Shown: one piece after another, positions 17,530-30,821 of the stretch
How positions within the stretch are numbered: the first letter of the stretch is position 1
How the letters are laid out: each line of letters opens with the position of its first letter
From: Methylomarinovum tepidoasis
Lineage (GTDB): Bacteria > Pseudomonadota > Gammaproteobacteria > Methylococcales > Methylothermaceae
Direction: 5' to 3'
Length of the DNA stretch: 64,000 bases
Assembly: GCF_030294985.1 (NCBI RefSeq)
Contig: NZ_AP024718.1
Coordinates: forward strand, 744,001-808,000
Made by a program: the position numbers and the translations under genes
The notes under the pieces: generated by a model
Told to the model about the DNA's origin: nothing
Databases searched by the model: none
What the model saw: the letters and a program-made list of their open reading frames with translations, nothing else

Positions 17530-18366
17530 TTACAGATTGAAGGCGTTCCACACCGGCTCGACGCCCGGCGGCAGCGGCGCCAGCCGCCCGAGATCGATCC
17601 AGGGAAAGGCCGGATCGTGGAAATCGGACCCCACCGACCCGGCCAGGCGGTAACGGCGGGCGTAATCGGCGCAGGTGGCGATCTGGTTGGGGGAGCTGTT
17701 GCCGCTGACCACCTCCAGCCCCACCCCGCCGGCGGACTGGAAGGCCGACAGAAAGCGCCGCAGCCAGCTGGCGGTGAGCTGATAGCGCAGCGGATGGGCC
17801 AGCACCGCGACGCCGCCGGCGGCGCGGATCCATTCCAGAGCCTCTTCCAGCCCGGCCCAGCGGGTGGCGACGTAACCGGGTTTGCCCCGCACCAGATAGC
17901 GGTCGAAGACGTCGGCCACCGAAGCGGCATAATCCTGGGCCACCAGAAAGCGGGCGAAGTGGGTGCGGGTGATCATACCCCCGCCGGCCATTTCCTCCAC
18001 CGCCGCCAGACTGCCCTCGATGCCGTGTCTGGCCAGATTCTCGGCCATCGCCGCCGCCCGCTCGCGGCGGATCCGCTGCAGGCCGGCCAAGCCCCGACAC
18101 AGGATTTCGTTGGTGGGATCGACACCCAGACCGAGGATGTGGAAGCATCGCCTCTCCCAGGTGACGGAGATCTCCACCCCGGCGATCAGGCGGACACCGA
18201 GCGCCTCGGCGGCGCGGCGGGCGCTCGCGATACCGGCGACGCTGTCGTGGTCGGTGAGGGCCAGATGACGCACGCCATTGGCCGCCGCCCGGCTCACCAC
18301 CTGTGGCGGGGACAGGGCGCCGTCGGAGGCGGTGGAATGACAGTGGAGATCGAACGCCGAGGTCAT
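17530..18366 (-). CDS. PHP-domain phosphoesterase (RNase AM / nucleoside-bisphosphate phosphatase type)
   Basis: 278 residues. PHP metal motifs are FDLHCHSTASDG (near residue 6), LALTDHDSVAGI, LIAGVEISVTW, VLAHPLRY and SDFHDP. This is the YciV type; E. coli RNase AM (YciV) acts 5'-3' on short RNAs and on 3',5'-bisphosphonucleosides. It overlaps the upstream ABC exporter by 4 bases (ATGA). Confidence 0.88.
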   Translation of the reverse strand: MTSAFDLHCHSTASDGALSPPQVVSRAAANGVRHLALTDHDSVAGIASARRAAEALGVRLIAGVEISVTWERRCFHILGLGVDPTNEILCRGLAGLQRIRRERAAAMAENLARHGIEGSLAAVEEMAGGGMITRTHFARFLVAQDYAASVADVFDRYLVRGKPGYVATRWAGLEEALEWIRAAGGVAVLAHPLRYQLTASWLRRFLSAFQSAGGVGLEVVSGNSSPNQIATCADYARRYRLAGSVGSDFHDPAFPWIDLGRLAPLPPGVEPVWNAFNL

Positions 18367-20186
18367 GGCAAAGCCTGCTGGCGTTCGCCGTAAAGCCTGG
18401 CGTAGAGGCCGCCCTGGGCTAGGAGATCGGCATGGCCGCCCTGTTCGCAGATGCGGCCGTCCTCGAATACGTAGACCCGGTCGGCCTGTTTCACGGCGCT
18501 GAGACGGTGGGCGACGATCACCGTGGTGCGGCGCGCCAGGAAGCGGGACAGCGCTTCGTGGAGCCGCTGCTCGGTTTCGGTGTCCAGCGCCGAGGTGGCC
18601 TCGTCGAAGATCACCACCTTCGGCTCGGCCAGAATCATGCGGGCGATGGCGAGGCGCTGGCGCTGCCCTCCGGAAAGGCGCATGCCGCTACGGCCGATGA
18701 CGGTGTCCAGACCGGCGGGCAGGGCGGCGACGGTGTCGGCGAGCTGGGCGGTCTCCAGGGCCCGCCACAGGCGGCGGTCGTCCAGATCGCGGCCCAGGGT
18801 CAGGTTGGCGCGGATGGTGTCGTTGAACAGCACCGGCTGCTGCAGCACCGTGGCCACGTGTTCGCGCACCACTTCCATGCCGATGCGGGTGATGGGCTCG
18901 CCGTCGTAATAGACCATTCCCCGCGTCGGCGCGTAGAGGCCGATGAGCACCTGCACCAGGGTGGACTTGCCACCGCCGCTGGCGCCCACCAGGGCTATCT
19001 TTTCGCCCGCACCGACGTCGAGGCTCACGCCTTTGAGGACTTCGTCCCCCTGATCGTAGCGGAAATGCAAGTCCTCGACCCGGATGGACACCGTGGGCTT
19101 GCCGCGGAAGGGATTGACCCGATGCGGATAACGCGGCTCCTGGCGCAACGCCAGCAGACGGTTGATCCGCGCCAGCGCCGCCTGAGCGCTGTAGAAGGCG
19201 TACTGGATGCCGAGCAGTTCCTGCACCGGCCCCATCATGAACCACAGGTAACCGAACACCGCCAGCATCTGGCCGATGCTGAGGTCGGAAAACAGCACCA
19301 TGGTCATGGCGGTAGCGCGGAACAGATCGACGCCGTGGAGGAAGACCACGAAGCTGAAACGGTTGAGGGCGTCGCTTTTCCAGGCATACTGCCCGGCACG
19401 GTGGCGCACCTGGTCGGCGTGATCGCGCAGGCGCTCGAAGTAATAACGCTCGCGGTTGCTGGCGCGGATCTGCTGGATGGCGTCCAGGGTTTCGGTCAGG
19501 GCCTGCTGGAACGCCTCCAGAGCGCCGTTTTCCTTCTTCTTGAGCTGCTTGACCCGTTTGCCCAGGGCGCGGGTGAAGTAGATCACCAGGGGATTGAGAC
19601 AGAGGATGAACAAGGCCAGGGGCCAGTGGATCCACAGCAGGATCGCCGCAGTGCCGACGATGGTGAGCGCGGCGATGAGAGAGCGGCTGATGGTGGCGCC
19701 GAGAAACTGGTCCAGGGTGTCGACATCGGTGACCAGGTGGGTGACCACGGTGCCGCTGCCGAGGGATTCGTATTCCGCCATCGACACCCGTTCCAGGCGC
19801 TTGAGCAGATCGGTGCGCAGCCGGTAGGTGACGTCCTTGGAAATCTCGGTAAACTGGCGCGTCTGCCAGACGTTGAAGCCCAGGGCCGCCAGGCGCAGCA
19901 GGAACGACAGCACCAGCACCGCGCCGATGTACCACAGGGCCCGGTCCCAGGGGAACGCCGCCGGCGGCGGCAACCAGCGGTCGATGAAAGCGGTCACCGG
20001 TCCCGGATGCCCCAGCAGGACCTCGTCCACCAGGGTCGGGATCAGCAGCGGCACCGGCACCGCCGCCAGGGCCGCCAGCAGCGCCACCGCCTGGGCCAGG
20101 AGCAGCTTGCGCCGGTGGCGCAGGCTCAAGCGGATCAGGGTGCGCCAGTCGTAGCGGCGCGGTGGCAGGGCGGCGGTGCGGGACAT
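18363..20186 (-). CDS. ABC exporter, fused membrane and ATPase domains (MsbA-like)
   Basis: 607 residues. A six-helix membrane domain covers about residues 25-330. The nucleotide-binding domain has a Walker A GASGGGKST at 401-409, a signature LSGGQ near 504 and a Walker B VVIFDEA near 524. One half-transporter that works as a dimer. Candidate substrates are lipids, glycolipids or peptides. It lies 4 bases after a Wzz/GumC-like gene, so involvement in surface polysaccharide or lipid export is possible. It is not clearly MsbA itself, as no lpxK follows. Confidence 0.88.
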   Translation of the reverse strand: MSRTAALPPRRYDWRTLIRLSLRHRRKLLLAQAVALLAALAAVPVPLLIPTLVDEVLLGHPGPVTAFIDRWLPPPAAFPWDRALWYIGAVLVLSFLLRLAALGFNVWQTRQFTEISKDVTYRLRTDLLKRLERVSMAEYESLGSGTVVTHLVTDVDTLDQFLGATISRSLIAALTIVGTAAILLWIHWPLALFILCLNPLVIYFTRALGKRVKQLKKKENGALEAFQQALTETLDAIQQIRASNRERYYFERLRDHADQVRHRAGQYAWKSDALNRFSFVVFLHGVDLFRATAMTMVLFSDLSIGQMLAVFGYLWFMMGPVQELLGIQYAFYSAQAALARINRLLALRQEPRYPHRVNPFRGKPTVSIRVEDLHFRYDQGDEVLKGVSLDVGAGEKIALVGASGGGKSTLVQVLIGLYAPTRGMVYYDGEPITRIGMEVVREHVATVLQQPVLFNDTIRANLTLGRDLDDRRLWRALETAQLADTVAALPAGLDTVIGRSGMRLSGGQRQRLAIARMILAEPKVVIFDEATSALDTETEQRLHEALSRFLARRTTVIVAHRLSAVKQADRVYVFEDGRICEQGGHADLLAQGGLYARLYGERQQALP

Positions 20187-20190
20187 GGCT

Positions 20191-22137
20191 TCAAGAACGC
20201 AGACAGGGATGGACCGGGTCGATCTGGTCCACGTCTTTGTCCGCTGCGATGGTGAGCGGCCGGTAACGGCTCAGGTCCTTCAGCGTCAGGGGCCCGACGA
20301 TGGCTTCCAGCCGGGCCAGTTTCAGCCCCTGGCGGAGCAGATGAACGATGCAGGCATGACGCAGCGCTTCCGGGGTTACGCTTTCCGGGTCTTCGAGCCC
20401 GGCTTCCACCGCGGCCAGATAGAGCAACTTGCGGACCGCTTCCGGATCACCAGGCACTAGGGGCGTCCCCCCGCTGGCCGCCAGCCAAGTCTTCAACCGC
20501 GGCGCCAGGGGCAGGGAGCGCCGGTGCGGGGGCGGGACCAGCAGGCGCGCATGGGCCAGATCCACATCCGTGGTTTCCAGGCGGGTCAACTCCTCCGGGG
20601 TCAGGCCGCTGAGGAGCAGGGCGACGGTCTGGCGGGTCTTCAGGTCGGCGCGGTCGATCAGGCGGTTCAGCGTTTCGGTATCGAGCTCCTGGGGCTGGGA
20701 AGGCAGCCTTTCCGGGGCCGTTTCCGTCCTGAGGGCTTCGGCCGGCGGCGGCGGGGAAAACAGGGGAGCCTGACGGGGATCGGCATAAACGTGCACCCCG
20801 GCGAGGGTCAGGCGGGTGTCCGGCAGCCGTGCTTCCCGCCGGGTCAGGAATTCCAGCAGCCAGACCGCCGCCAGTCCCAGCCCGAAGGCGAGCAGCGCCA
20901 CCACCCCAGCGTCACGCCAGTAATGGGGCCGGATGGGGCTTTCCGGCGCGTAGGCCTTTTCGACCACCTCCACCTGGGGATACTGTTCCAGCTGCTTGAC
21001 CTCCAGCTGGGTGATGCGGGCCTGCAGCTCGCGCTGCTGTTCTTCCAGCTGTTCCAGATCCTTCACCAGCGACTCGTGCTCGGCGAAGCGGGTGCTGAAT
21101 TCCTGCGCCTGGCGTTTGTGCGCCTCCAGCTGGCGCCGGGTTTCCGCCACCGTCTGGAGGGCGGCGGCGTAATCCTGTTGCGCCTGGGCCAGCACCGCCC
21201 GGCGGCCCCGTTCCACCAGCGCCGCGATCTTGGCCTCCACTTCCCGCAGCTGCTGCGGCACTTTGCGGTAGGCGGGATTGAGGCGGATGTACTGGGGAGT
21301 GAAGCGCTGTTTCATGGCGGTCAACTGCTCACGCAGCGCCTGGGCCCGCTGCTCCAGCACCGCCAGTACCTGCTGGTCTTCCTCGGGGACCACCGGCTTG
21401 CCGGCGGCGACCGCCGCCTTCACCGCCTCCAGGCGCGACCTGGCCTCGACCACCGCCTCGTTGGCCTTGTTGAGGGCCTCGGTCAGACCGTTGAGACGGG
21501 CGAGCGCGGTGTTTTCCCCGCGCTCCAGGGAAGCGATGTCGTAACGCTGGCGGAAATCCTCCAGAGCCTTGCGGCGGGCGGCGATCTTGCCCTGAAGCGC
21601 CGCCAGCCGCTCACGCAGCGCCCGCAGGGTGGCGCCGGTGGAAGCCTCGATCTCCCGTGCCCGCACCTCCCGGTAGACCTCGACCCAGGTGTTGACCAGG
21701 GGGGCGAGCAGATCGCGGTCCGGGCCTTCGGCGATCAGGCGCACCAGATTGGTGTCGGGCACCGGTTCCACCCGCAGCATCTCCCTCACTGCCGCCGGGG
21801 TCAGGCCCGGCGGCAGGCGGCCGTCCCATTCCAGCCGCTCGAGGGTTTCCTCCAACAGCGGCTGGCCGGTGAGCAGGACGCGCTGGATGGCGATGTGCTG
21901 GGGATCGACGACGACCTCATCGGCATCGACCGCCGGCGGCGGGGTGGTCAGCAAGGTGGCGCCGGCCTGATAGATCGCCGGCCGCAAGAAAACGATCAGC
22001 CAGCCCAGCAGCAGGGTCGCGGCGGCGACAGCGGCGAACACCAGAACACGGCGCTGCCGGTACCAGGGCAGAGGCGGGACGCTGGCGGGCGGGGCCGGTT
22101 CCGGCCCGGAAATGCGTTCCACGGGGATCTGTGCCAT
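20191..22137 (-). CDS. Wzz/GumC-like chain-length protein with C-terminal degenerate tyrosine-recombinase domain
   Basis: 648 residues. Helix 1 is at about 30-50, a Wzz-type periplasmic head and long coiled coils at 60-400, then the PESPIRPHYWRD motif and helix 2 at about 405-430. This layout is that of polysaccharide co-polymerases. After a proline-rich linker, residues about 486-628 read like a tyrosine-recombinase catalytic domain: LLLSGLTPEELTRLETTDVDL (here the usual catalytic Arg is Thr), VTPEALRHACIVHLLRQG (HxLRH with the first His changed to Glu, Arg kept), VGP instead of LGH, and a final Tyr in LSRY. The domain is probably inactive and cytoplasmic, and may bind or oligomerise. It lies 26 bases after purK. 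Confidence 0.8.
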   Translation of the reverse strand: MAQIPVERISGPEPAPPASVPPLPWYRQRRVLVFAAVAAATLLLGWLIVFLRPAIYQAGATLLTTPPPAVDADEVVVDPQHIAIQRVLLTGQPLLEETLERLEWDGRLPPGLTPAAVREMLRVEPVPDTNLVRLIAEGPDRDLLAPLVNTWVEVYREVRAREIEASTGATLRALRERLAALQGKIAARRKALEDFRQRYDIASLERGENTALARLNGLTEALNKANEAVVEARSRLEAVKAAVAAGKPVVPEEDQQVLAVLEQRAQALREQLTAMKQRFTPQYIRLNPAYRKVPQQLREVEAKIAALVERGRRAVLAQAQQDYAAALQTVAETRRQLEAHKRQAQEFSTRFAEHESLVKDLEQLEEQQRELQARITQLEVKQLEQYPQVEVVEKAYAPESPIRPHYWRDAGVVALLAFGLGLAAVWLLEFLTRREARLPDTRLTLAGVHVYADPRQAPLFSPPPPAEALRTETAPERLPSQPQELDTETLNRLIDRADLKTRQTVALLLSGLTPEELTRLETTDVDLAHARLLVPPPHRRSLPLAPRLKTWLAASGGTPLVPGDPEAVRKLLYLAAVEAGLEDPESVTPEALRHACIVHLLRQGLKLARLEAIVGPLTLKDLSRYRPLTIAADKDVDQIDPVHPCLRS

Positions 22138-28466: not shown

Positions 28467-29203
28467 CGATTCAGACCCGTGAAGTGGAATATTTCGACGG
28501 TGACACCCGCCTGGTCGGCTTTCTCGCCTGGGACGACGCCCGCACCGTCCCCATGCCCGGGGTGCTGATCGCCCACATGTGGGGCGGGCGCGAAGCATTC
28601 GTCTGCGACAAGGCGGTGGCTCTGGCGGAGCTGGGCTATGCCGGCTTCGCTCTGGATCTCTACGGCGACGCCAGGACCGGCAGCGGCCCGGAGGAAAACG
28701 CCCGCTTGATGCAGCCGTTCCTCGACGACCGCACCCTGCTGCAGCGGCGCATGATCCTGTCCTGGGAGACCATGCGCCGCCAGTCCATGGTCGATCCCGC
28801 CCAGACCGCCGCCATCGGCTACTGCTTCGGCGGCCTGTGCGTGCTCGATCTGGCCCGCACCGGCACCGAAGTGGGCGGGGTGGTCAGCTTCCACGGCCTG
28901 CTCAAGCCGCCGGGCAACACCGCCGGCAACCCGATCAAGGCCAAGGTGCTGGTGCTCCACGGCCACGACGATCCCATGGTGCCGGTGGAAGACGTGGTCG
29001 CCCTGGAAACCGAGCTGACCGAGGCCGGTTGCGACTGGCAGGTGCACGTCTACGGTCACACCCTGCACGCCTTCACCAACCCCAAAGCGAACGATCCGGC
29101 TTTCGGCACCGTCTATAACCCGGACGCCGACCGGCGCTCGTGGATCGAAATGCGGAACTTCCTGGACGAACTGTTCAACGCCCGGTCAACCACCCCTCCC
29201 TGA
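28463..29203 (+). CDS. Dienelactone hydrolase family protein with element-derived 3' end
   Basis: 246 residues. Alpha/beta hydrolase with nucleophile GYCFGG (Cys near residue 124), Asp in HGHDDPMVP and His in HTLHAFTNP: the Cys-Asp-His triad of dienelactone hydrolases. The physiological substrate is unknown. Translationally coupled to zwf. The last codons and the TGA lie in the left end of the IscB element, so the native C-terminus was replaced by about five foreign residues (STTPP); the catalytic domain is complete. Confidence 0.9.
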
Positions 29204-29458
29204 AGGAAGGGGCTTGTGGAGAAATCCACAAGCCCGGGGTTGACCAGGGAAAGCTGTAACCAACCGGCTACGTTGCAGGTAAGGCCAAAAGACCCACCCT
29301 GGGATGCTTCCTCAGTCCCAGGCTCTGGAAGTCCCGGTTGCAGACAAGGGCCGGGTACCCACGAAACGGACCGGGACAGCGGGCCGGCCTGCAACATTCC
29401 CGAGGGGAGACACCCTGAAATGGGTGCGTTACCAGGCCCGTAAGGGCGTTTTTGGAGA
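29184..29458 (+). ncRNA. Candidate omegaRNA scaffold upstream of iscB
   Basis: Several helices can be drawn by eye. GGTCAACC (29184-29191) pairs with GGTTGACC (29238-29245), enclosing a CCCCTCCC hairpin and GCTTGTGG/CCACAAGC (29213-29220 with 29225-29232). GTTGCAGG (29272-29279) pairs with CCTGCAAC (29388-29395), enclosing CCTGGGA/TCCCAGG (29298-29304 with 29316-29322). Then come CACCC/GGGTG (29411-29426) and GCCC/GGGC (29436-29447). IscB omegaRNAs lie in this position and carry the guide at the 5' end, so the guide would be the host sequence just before 29184. The exact ends are unknown. Confidence 0.65.
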
Positions 29459-29465
29459 GAGAACC

Positions 29466-30821
29466 ATGGCCGTTTTCGTACTCGACAGACACAAAAAGCC
29501 ACTGATGCCTTGCTCGGAGAAGCGGGCGCGGCTGCTTTTGGAACGGGGCCGGGCGGTGGTGCACCGGCGGGCGCCGTTCGTCATCCGCCTCAAGGACCGC
29601 ACGGTGGCGGAATCCCAATTGCAGCCGCTGCGCCTGACGCTCGATCCCGGTAGCCGGGGGACCGGGATGGCCCTGGTACGGGAGACCGAGCGCCTTAATC
29701 CTGAAACCGGCCAAATCCACCGGGAACGGCAGGTACTGACGCTGCTGGAACTGTTCCACCGCGGCCACCTGATCCGCAAGCAACTGGCGCAACGGGCGGC
29801 TTTCCGCCAGAATCGGCGTTACCGCAAGACCCGCTACCGCCCGCCCCGGTTCGCCAACCGCAGAAGGCCGGACGGGTGGCTCGCCCCATCGCTGCAACAC
29901 CGGGTGGATGCCACACTGGCGTGGGTGGAACGGCTCTGCCGCTGGGCGCCTGTCACCGACCTTTCGCTGGAACTGGCGCGTTTCGACACCCAAAAGCTCC
30001 AGAATCCGGAAATCTCCGGGACCGAATACCAGCAGGGCGAGCGGTTCGGCTACGAGGTGCGGGAATACCTGCTGGAGAAGTGGGGCCGGCAATGCGCCTA
30101 CTGCGGCGCTGAAAACGTGCCGCTGGAAATCGACCACATCCACCCCAGGTCCCGCGGTGGCAGCGACCGGGTGGGCAACCTTACCCTGGCCTGCCGGGAT
30201 TGCAACCAGGCCAAGGGCAACCGGGACGTCAAGGAATTTTTGTCCGGCCAACCGGATCGGCTGGCGCAGATTTTGGCGCAGGCCAAGGCCCCGCTCCGGG
30301 ATGCGGCGGCGGTCAACGCCACCCGCTGGGCGTTGCACCAGGCGCTGGTGGCAACCGGCCTTCCTGTCGAACCCGGTACCGGAGGGCGGACGAAATGGAA
30401 CCGCACCCGCTTTGCCATCCCCAAGACCCACGCCCTGGATGCCGCCTGTGTCGGGCAGGTGGATGCGGTACGAAACTGGCGCATTCCCACCCTCGGTATC
30501 CGTTGTACCGGAAGAGGCAGCTATCAACGCACCCGGCTGAACAAATATGGTTTCCCAAGAGGCTATCTGAACCGCCAGAAATGCCACTTCGGCTTTCAGA
30601 CCGGCGACTGGGTGCGGGCCGAGGTACCCTCGGGCAAGAAGGCCGGCGTCCATGTGGGCCGGGTGGCCGTCCGGGCTTCGGGCAGTTTCAATATCCAGAC
30701 GCCCCAGGGCGTCGTGCAAGGGGTCCATGCCCGCCACTGCCGCCTACTGCAACGGGCGGACGGGTATGGGTATTTCATGCAACCCAAACCAACGGAGGCC
30801 GCGCTTTCCTCCTCCGCCTGA
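29466..30821 (+). CDS. iscB: IscB RNA-guided nuclease
   Basis: 451 residues from the ATG at 29466 with GGAGAGAG upstream. Order: PLMP domain at residues 1-50 ([21 protein letters not shown]); RuvC-I with Asp60 ([11 protein letters not shown]); Arg-rich bridge helix about 115-140 ([13 protein letters not shown]); RuvC-II with Glu169 (LSLELARFD); HNH with CAYC at 210-213, Asp223-His224 in [12 protein letters not shown] and a second Cys pair (ACRDC); RuvC-III with His322/Asp325 (KTHALDAA); C-terminal omegaRNA/TAM-interacting region. All catalytic residues are present. IscB proteins are the Cas9 ancestors guided by omegaRNA. The stop TGA lies in the loop of the right-end hairpin. Confidence 0.93.

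Follow-up and report, generated by a model that had tools for sequence, protein, structure and literature searches.

What does a DNA-recombinase fold do at the end of a membrane protein that resembles polysaccharide co-polymerases (PCPs)? The question is raised by one gene in a stretch of 64,000 nucleotides from Methylomarinovum tepidoasis, referred to here as the window: an open reading frame (ORF) of 648 codons plus stop, beginning with ATG on the minus strand at positions 20191-22137, in a genome of 2.44 Mb in two contigs. Plus-strand ORFs over the same interval were ruled out as the gene, because the plus-strand frame there has an internal stop. The fusion ORF, its segments and the gene that follows it are, in window coordinates:

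20191..22137, minus strand: fusion ORF (ORF list; near-full-length homologues of 53-95% identity across the nine other congeneric genomes searched)
21985..22065, minus strand: first membrane helix, residues 25-51 (AlphaFold2 helix 25-51; hydropathy peak 31-49)
20923..21984, minus strand: Wzz/Wzc-like body with long coiled-coil helices, residues 52-405, periplasmic by homology (TIGR03007; Foldseek match to Wzc)
20842..20922, minus strand: second membrane helix, residues 406-432 (AlphaFold2 helix 406-432; hydropathy peak 410-428)
20701..20841, minus strand: flexible linker, residues 433-479 (AlphaFold2 pLDDT below 50 at 434-479)
20194..20700, minus strand: tyrosine-recombinase-fold domain without the catalytic set, residues 480-648 (AlphaFold2, XerA match, residue census)
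18363..20186, minus strand: MsbA-type ABC exporter, 4 bases after the fusion stop (TIGR02203, E 1.7e-107, below the equivalog cut-off)

Residues 25-432 form a two-helix, coiled-coil body resembling PCPs and Wzc, and AlphaFold2, Foldseek and hydropathy together give the PCP-2 architecture, in which two membrane helices flank a Wzz-like domain with extended helices. The Wzz/GumC-like membrane part that a preliminary description had read from the DNA is borne out by a pair of hydrophobic stretches, whose best windows are 31-49 and 410-428, and by the match to Wzc. The body reaches an E of 6.9e-16 with TIGR03007 over residues 28-434 (57.5 bits against a curated cut-off of 278.85), 45.3 bits with TIGR03017 (cut-off 422.75), 14.2 bits with Pfam Wzz (cut-off 25.5) and 15.1 bits with Pfam GNVR (cut-off 27.7); because all these scores lie below the cut-offs, we file the protein as PCP-2-like by fold and not as a member of the named families. 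The AlphaFold2 model of the whole fusion, built on 19 sequences, has a mean pLDDT of 81.2 and a pTM of 0.36, and does not fix the placement of the two halves relative to each other. A single Foldseek search with this model matched both halves, one to Wzc (9r64) and the other to XerA (5hxy_A). The Wzc match has an E of 9.8e-9 but a TM-score of 0.26 and an rmsd of 20.6 across the whole chain, and the XerA match an E of 1.5e-5, an rmsd of 2.9 over 172 columns and 23% identity. The fold of the body makes polysaccharide the likely cargo. Of the name "chain-length protein" given earlier, the PCP-like body fold stands; the chain-length role would follow from the fold, and the 80 named loci show no neighbouring gene common to the different lineages.

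Wzc-type PCP-2 proteins, which top the Foldseek matches for the complete model, likewise have two membrane helices with long helices between them, but carry a cytoplasmic kinase domain where the fusion has a recombinase-fold domain, and no gene neighbourhood shared by its lineages emerged for the fusion from the 80 named loci. By homology to Wzc, the tail of the fusion would lie on the cytoplasmic side. It is not a bacterial tyrosine kinase (BYK) domain of the Walker type: Phage_integrase is the one Pfam family that it matches at E values up to 10, and tyrosine recombinases head its list of fold matches. Two further co-polymerase-like proteins are encoded elsewhere in the window genome (L002 and L003, with open frames of 779 and 524 amino acids), the former with what we take, from its length and a Walker-like motif, to be a kinase tail.

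The preliminary description had placed a tyrosine-recombinase catalytic domain after the second membrane helix, a claim that profiles, AlphaFold2 and comparison with the PDB confirm at residues of about 480-648. When residues 474-648 are modelled by themselves on 53 diverse tails, the domain reaches a mean pLDDT of 94.5 and a pTM of 0.90. The best solved match by VIA-align is XerA (5hxy_B; Z 15.7, rmsd 2.7 A over 145 residues, 24% identity), and XerA is also ranked first by Foldseek (E 2.2e-7). The structure prediction, which would have refuted the claim by showing no recombinase fold, returned one with XerA as its best solved match. The best 50 fold matches are tyrosine recombinases and their relatives, with type IB topoisomerases last, a ranking in which the absence of other folds carries no weight. 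The NCBIfam XerA model matches the tail with an E of 2.8e-7, best over residues 565-626 (30.4 bits against a full-length cut-off of 220), while Pfam Phage_integrase gives the window tail alone an E of 1.5e-5 and 25.3 bits, just below its 27.1-bit cut-off, and matches 37 of the 53 diverse tails at E <= 0.01. Profile-profile comparison of the tails with 12 XerC/XerD domains from six fusion-bearing genomes gave 98.1% in forced global and 97.3% in local alignment. The motifs named earlier are placed at residues 510-516 (SGLTPEE), 588-601 (TPEALRHACIVHLL), 614-619 (VGPLTL) and 623-625 (SRY).

The tail shares the catalytic-domain fold of XerA, XerC and XerD without their active site. The catalytic set of the family consists of Arg-I, His-II, Arg-II, His/Trp-III and Tyr. 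As noted from the letters alone, the window tail has T513 at Arg-I, E590 at the first His and P616 for the His of the GH pair, and keeps R593 (the second Arg) and Y625. A census of 92 distinct proteins (those left after dropping copies identical in the last 300 residues) found Arg-I in none (Thr in 53, Ser in 27, others in the rest) and the first His in none (Glu in 42, Asp in 15, among others), so that both differ from the Xer proteins throughout; the third catalytic position holds a His in 10. Arg-II survives in 84 of the 92 and Tyr likewise in 84, with both present in 78. By this census the tails lack the full set of residues that characterises a tyrosine recombinase, and the missing ones suggest that DNA cleavage has been lost. 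Other tail positions are strongly conserved (G511 and G615 in all 92; Q603, P644 and R540 in 91; Y596 in 90). The earlier term "degenerate" is therefore apt for catalysis, the catalytic residues being gone, and misleading for selection, the tail being conserved.

Whether the tail might still hold DNA bears on a rival reading, in which it would bind DNA without cutting it, much as MrpR does, and tether the nucleoid or some regulatory site to the membrane. MrpR (YopR), the repressor of the SPbeta prophage, is described as a recombinase-fold protein that has lost recombinase function and been reused for binding DNA (PMC10516654). The recombinase-fold regulators MrpR/YopR and SroF are among the structural matches of the tail (Z 11.2-12.5), and the conservation of R593 (84 of 92) and R540 (91 of 92) would suit a DNA contact. 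Acidity speaks against it: all 53 tails carry a net negative charge (-15 to -1) with a pI of 4.29-6.57 (median 5.03), whereas the recombinase domains of the six fusion-bearing genomes (last 185 residues; 23 of 30 recombinase loci, with fragments and the weakest left out, from 46 matches listed) have a median pI of 9.81, 22 of the 23 lying at 8.6 or above and one at 6.82. Net charge is a crude proxy for DNA binding and leaves room for a local basic patch, yet acidic tails beside basic recombinase domains in related genomes argue against binding, and the tail has probably lost DNA binding as well as cleavage. The linker ahead of the tail is predicted to be disordered, which implies that the N-terminal core-binding domain is absent there; this, the acidity and the attachment to a membrane protein set the tails apart from XerA, XerC and XerD, and the pI likewise points away from a basic DNA-binding surface. 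We consider the DNA anchor unlikely.

The extreme C-terminus invites two further readings. The tails end in a His/Tyr-Pro pair (H643-P644 in the window) that, in the forced global alignment, superposes on the HP of XerC/D; since the local profile alignment stops before the pair, this likeness is a lead only. One reading makes the tail a mimic of XerD that would bind a partner of the Xer proteins, for instance the FtsK gamma domain, and so couple envelope synthesis to division. The tail does align with the C-terminal domain of XerD in 5dcf (Z 10.2), and the superposed HP would fit, but with the local alignment ending short of it we regard the mimic as very improbable, more so than the DNA anchor. 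In the other, somewhat less doubtful and still speculative, the C-terminal segment (P644 in 91 of 92) would dock in cis, or swap in trans from one tail to its neighbour, like helix alpha-N in XerA/Cre and switch ring assembly without tyrosine phosphorylation; if true, the recombinase's own assembly mechanism would have been exapted for a membrane co-polymerase.

An assembly error joining two genes would have refuted the fusion, and the distribution of the fusion disposes of it. A search of genome contigs with a single protein as query gave no loci, and one with the fusion alignment did. In all, 122 loci were collected, with 92 distinct proteins, from Methylococcales, Nitrosomonas/Nitrosospira and some other Gammaproteobacteria; two collections contributed the same gene to the 122, and that all of them reach the tail is biased, the loci having been sought with patterns from the fusion alignment. 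The survey of related genomes proposed at the outset thus found the same fusion well beyond the window. A near-full-length match is present in all ten genomes searched from the genus, among them that of the window. Among the best 80 of 104 loci, which were found with the same patterns and named, the nearest homologues are from Methylothermaceae/Methylohalobius, and the others include further methanotrophs (Methylobacter, Methylotuvimicrobium buryatense (L062), Methylocaldum) and Nitrosomonas europaea (L099), N. eutropha, several Nitrosospira, Sedimenticola and Neptunomonas antarctica.

A fairer count than the 122 loci comes from the order, where 98 of 301 genomes give a match at E <= 1e-20. 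A tally made by hand puts 71 of them down as unbroken matches that take in the tail; in five more the tail belongs to a match that is split, interrupted or partial (G274, G080, G137, G240 and G299, the last a lone tail that begins at the contig's end). The remaining 22 have no tail in the match: 17 belong to a single genus, g12, and end before the tail; in G010, G256 and G300 the match is cut by the contig end; and besides G287 this leaves G161 as the remaining case. The G287 locus (L196) has a piece of the head (model 1-88) and one of the tail (566-650) lying close together in different frames with the middle missing, either a broken gene or a misassembly. Three genomes of another genus, g42 (G145, G223 and G235), hold two near-full-length fusion copies each. 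Outside the order the fusion is rare: 7 of 369 genomes match in a sample of the class, one with the body only and two being the window's own and another member of the order, and 3 of 398 in a sample of the phylum, again with the window's own. A tail profile run on the class sample, with at most 10 candidates scored per genome, hit 5 of 321 genomes at E <= 1e-16, in every case inside the fusion. Only 4 of 72,556 plasmid records matched, by the tail alone (three annotated as tyrosine recombinase, one unannotated), and 4 of 50,697 phage records, by weak recombinase or integrase matches (E 0.01-0.08); being few and tail-only or weak, these point to no mobile donor.

The presence of the fusion in many genomes, including single-contig ones (e.g. 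G003 and G402), means that it is not an assembly join. The related idea, that the tail is the leftover of an inserted recombinase in decay, could appeal to the lost catalytic residues and to one clade without a tail, but the same junction recurs in 92 distinct proteins, and the tail is under purifying selection in all 12 close pairs analysed. Its dN/dS is 0.064-0.222, compared with 0.050-0.160 for the body and 0.051-0.369 for the linker, and exceeds that of the body in 11 of the 12 pairs, some of which have sequences in common and two of which have a dS near 1. Recurrence across genomes and selection on the tail lead us to reject artefact and leftover alike, to which we attach practically no probability.

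The fusion apparently arose once, as the tails form one clade and the architecture is the same throughout. In a tree of 53 tails with 22 recombinases of the six fusion-bearing genomes (22 of 30 recombinase loci, from 46 matches listed), the tails are a single clade with SH-aLRT 100; this tree and that of the fusion were built by a quick method with SH-aLRT as the sole support measure. The copies of Nitrosomonas and of Nitrosospira/Nitrosovibrio occupy two separate places among the methanotroph copies of the fusion tree, a placement that suggests two transfers between methane and ammonia oxidisers. The fusion tree contains two changes in the tail, one in g12 and the other an artefact of labelling as tailless the locus L175 (G010), which a contig end cuts. 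Fourteen loci of g12 (L163-L174, L179, L180) keep the body without the tail and group in a single clade (SH-aLRT 98), next to three loci of the same genus that have the tail. No tail remnant was found in the fetched flanks of the 14, and no separate tail in the 13 of the 14 tailless genomes that were searched whole, the best match (E 3.0e-11) being at the level of an ordinary recombinase, of which XerD in the genome of the window (2.7e-10) is an example. With the body retained and the tail gone, the tail is not indispensable, and this clade offers a natural comparison for its role.

The gene neighbourhood bears on what the tail might bind. In the window the fusion gene lies between purE-purK and the MsbA-type ABC exporter, and an exporter of like sequence, judged by resemblance, stands directly downstream in at least 7 of the 80 named loci (best 80 of 104), which makes it a candidate partner in Methylothermaceae and in two Methylococcaceae loci. 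Another cluster lies directly downstream in 10 of these 80, one representative being a glycosyltransferase 2 (TIGR04283), and a third, of putative phosphoenolpyruvate carboxylase-like genes, lies upstream in 8 of the best 80. The tail might serve to recruit a specific enzyme of the cytoplasm or the membrane, for example the exporter in Methylothermaceae or a glycosyltransferase in other methanotrophs, in place of driving ring assembly. Such recruitment would explain an exporter only 4 bases from the fusion stop and the recurrence of both genes, but the neighbour varies by lineage and the Nitrosomonas loci, viewed one gene to each side, show neither. No neighbour is common across lineages in the best 80 of 104 loci, whose neighbours were clustered and in small part scanned against family models. 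We hold recruitment to be possible though doubtful, the strongest of the alternatives. Farther along the window, a gene on the plus strand at 29304-30821 encodes RRXRR and HNH domains (Pfam) and is IscB-like; a HEARO RNA (Rfam RF02033, 126.4 bits) at 29185-29415 overlaps its start, and the two are presumably an IscB with its guide (omega) RNA.

The reading that we prefer to recruitment, and in which our confidence is evenly balanced, is that a PCP-2-like protein was fused once to a Xer-type catalytic domain whose descendant is now a non-catalytic module that binds itself or a partner and sets oligomeric state. In this scheme a PCP-2-like inner-membrane protein would have gained the recombinase domain as a cytoplasmic tail by gene fusion, apparently in a single event; the tail would then have lost DNA cleavage and probably DNA binding, and would persist as a folded cytoplasmic module that, by binding to itself or to a partner protein, sets the oligomeric state of the membrane ring or else senses it. 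The binding or oligomerisation module suggested by the preliminary description fits the evidence, and a protein-binding or ring-forming part in place of the kinase tail is the most likely role by analogy. That R593 and Y625 are each kept in 84 of 92 proteins counts against a pure scaffold, which need not keep them. The analogy comes from a study of PCP-2 systems, in which a tyrosine kinase sets the oligomeric state; for the pseudokinase EcpK of Myxococcus xanthus, action by binding alone is proposed, as a non-catalytic scaffold on the PCP EpsV (PMC12004946). By that analogy the tail would stand where Wzc has its tyrosine kinase domain. EcpK differs in being a separate protein of kinase fold, whereas the module of the fusion is attached and of recombinase fold.

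No report of a recombinase-fold tail on a membrane co-polymerase-like protein was found among the titles and abstract starts listed in searches of open-licence PMC papers, and a paper on the methanotroph S-layer (PMC11784148) mentions neither Wzz nor a recombinase; the domain combination may already be present in protein databases. Reuse of a dead recombinase fold is already known from MrpR (PMC10516654), but MrpR is a DNA-binding repressor, and the fusion tail is acidic and sits on a membrane protein. The recombinase fold thus seems to have been given a new role that does not involve DNA cleavage, and its known uses would widen from DNA cutting and, in MrpR, DNA binding to an acidic, apparently protein-binding module. 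For the PCP-2-like proteins, the fusion points to control independent of a kinase, the question that EcpK opened, in a family with members in named methanotroph and ammonia-oxidiser strains such as Methylotuvimicrobium buryatense and Nitrosomonas europaea.
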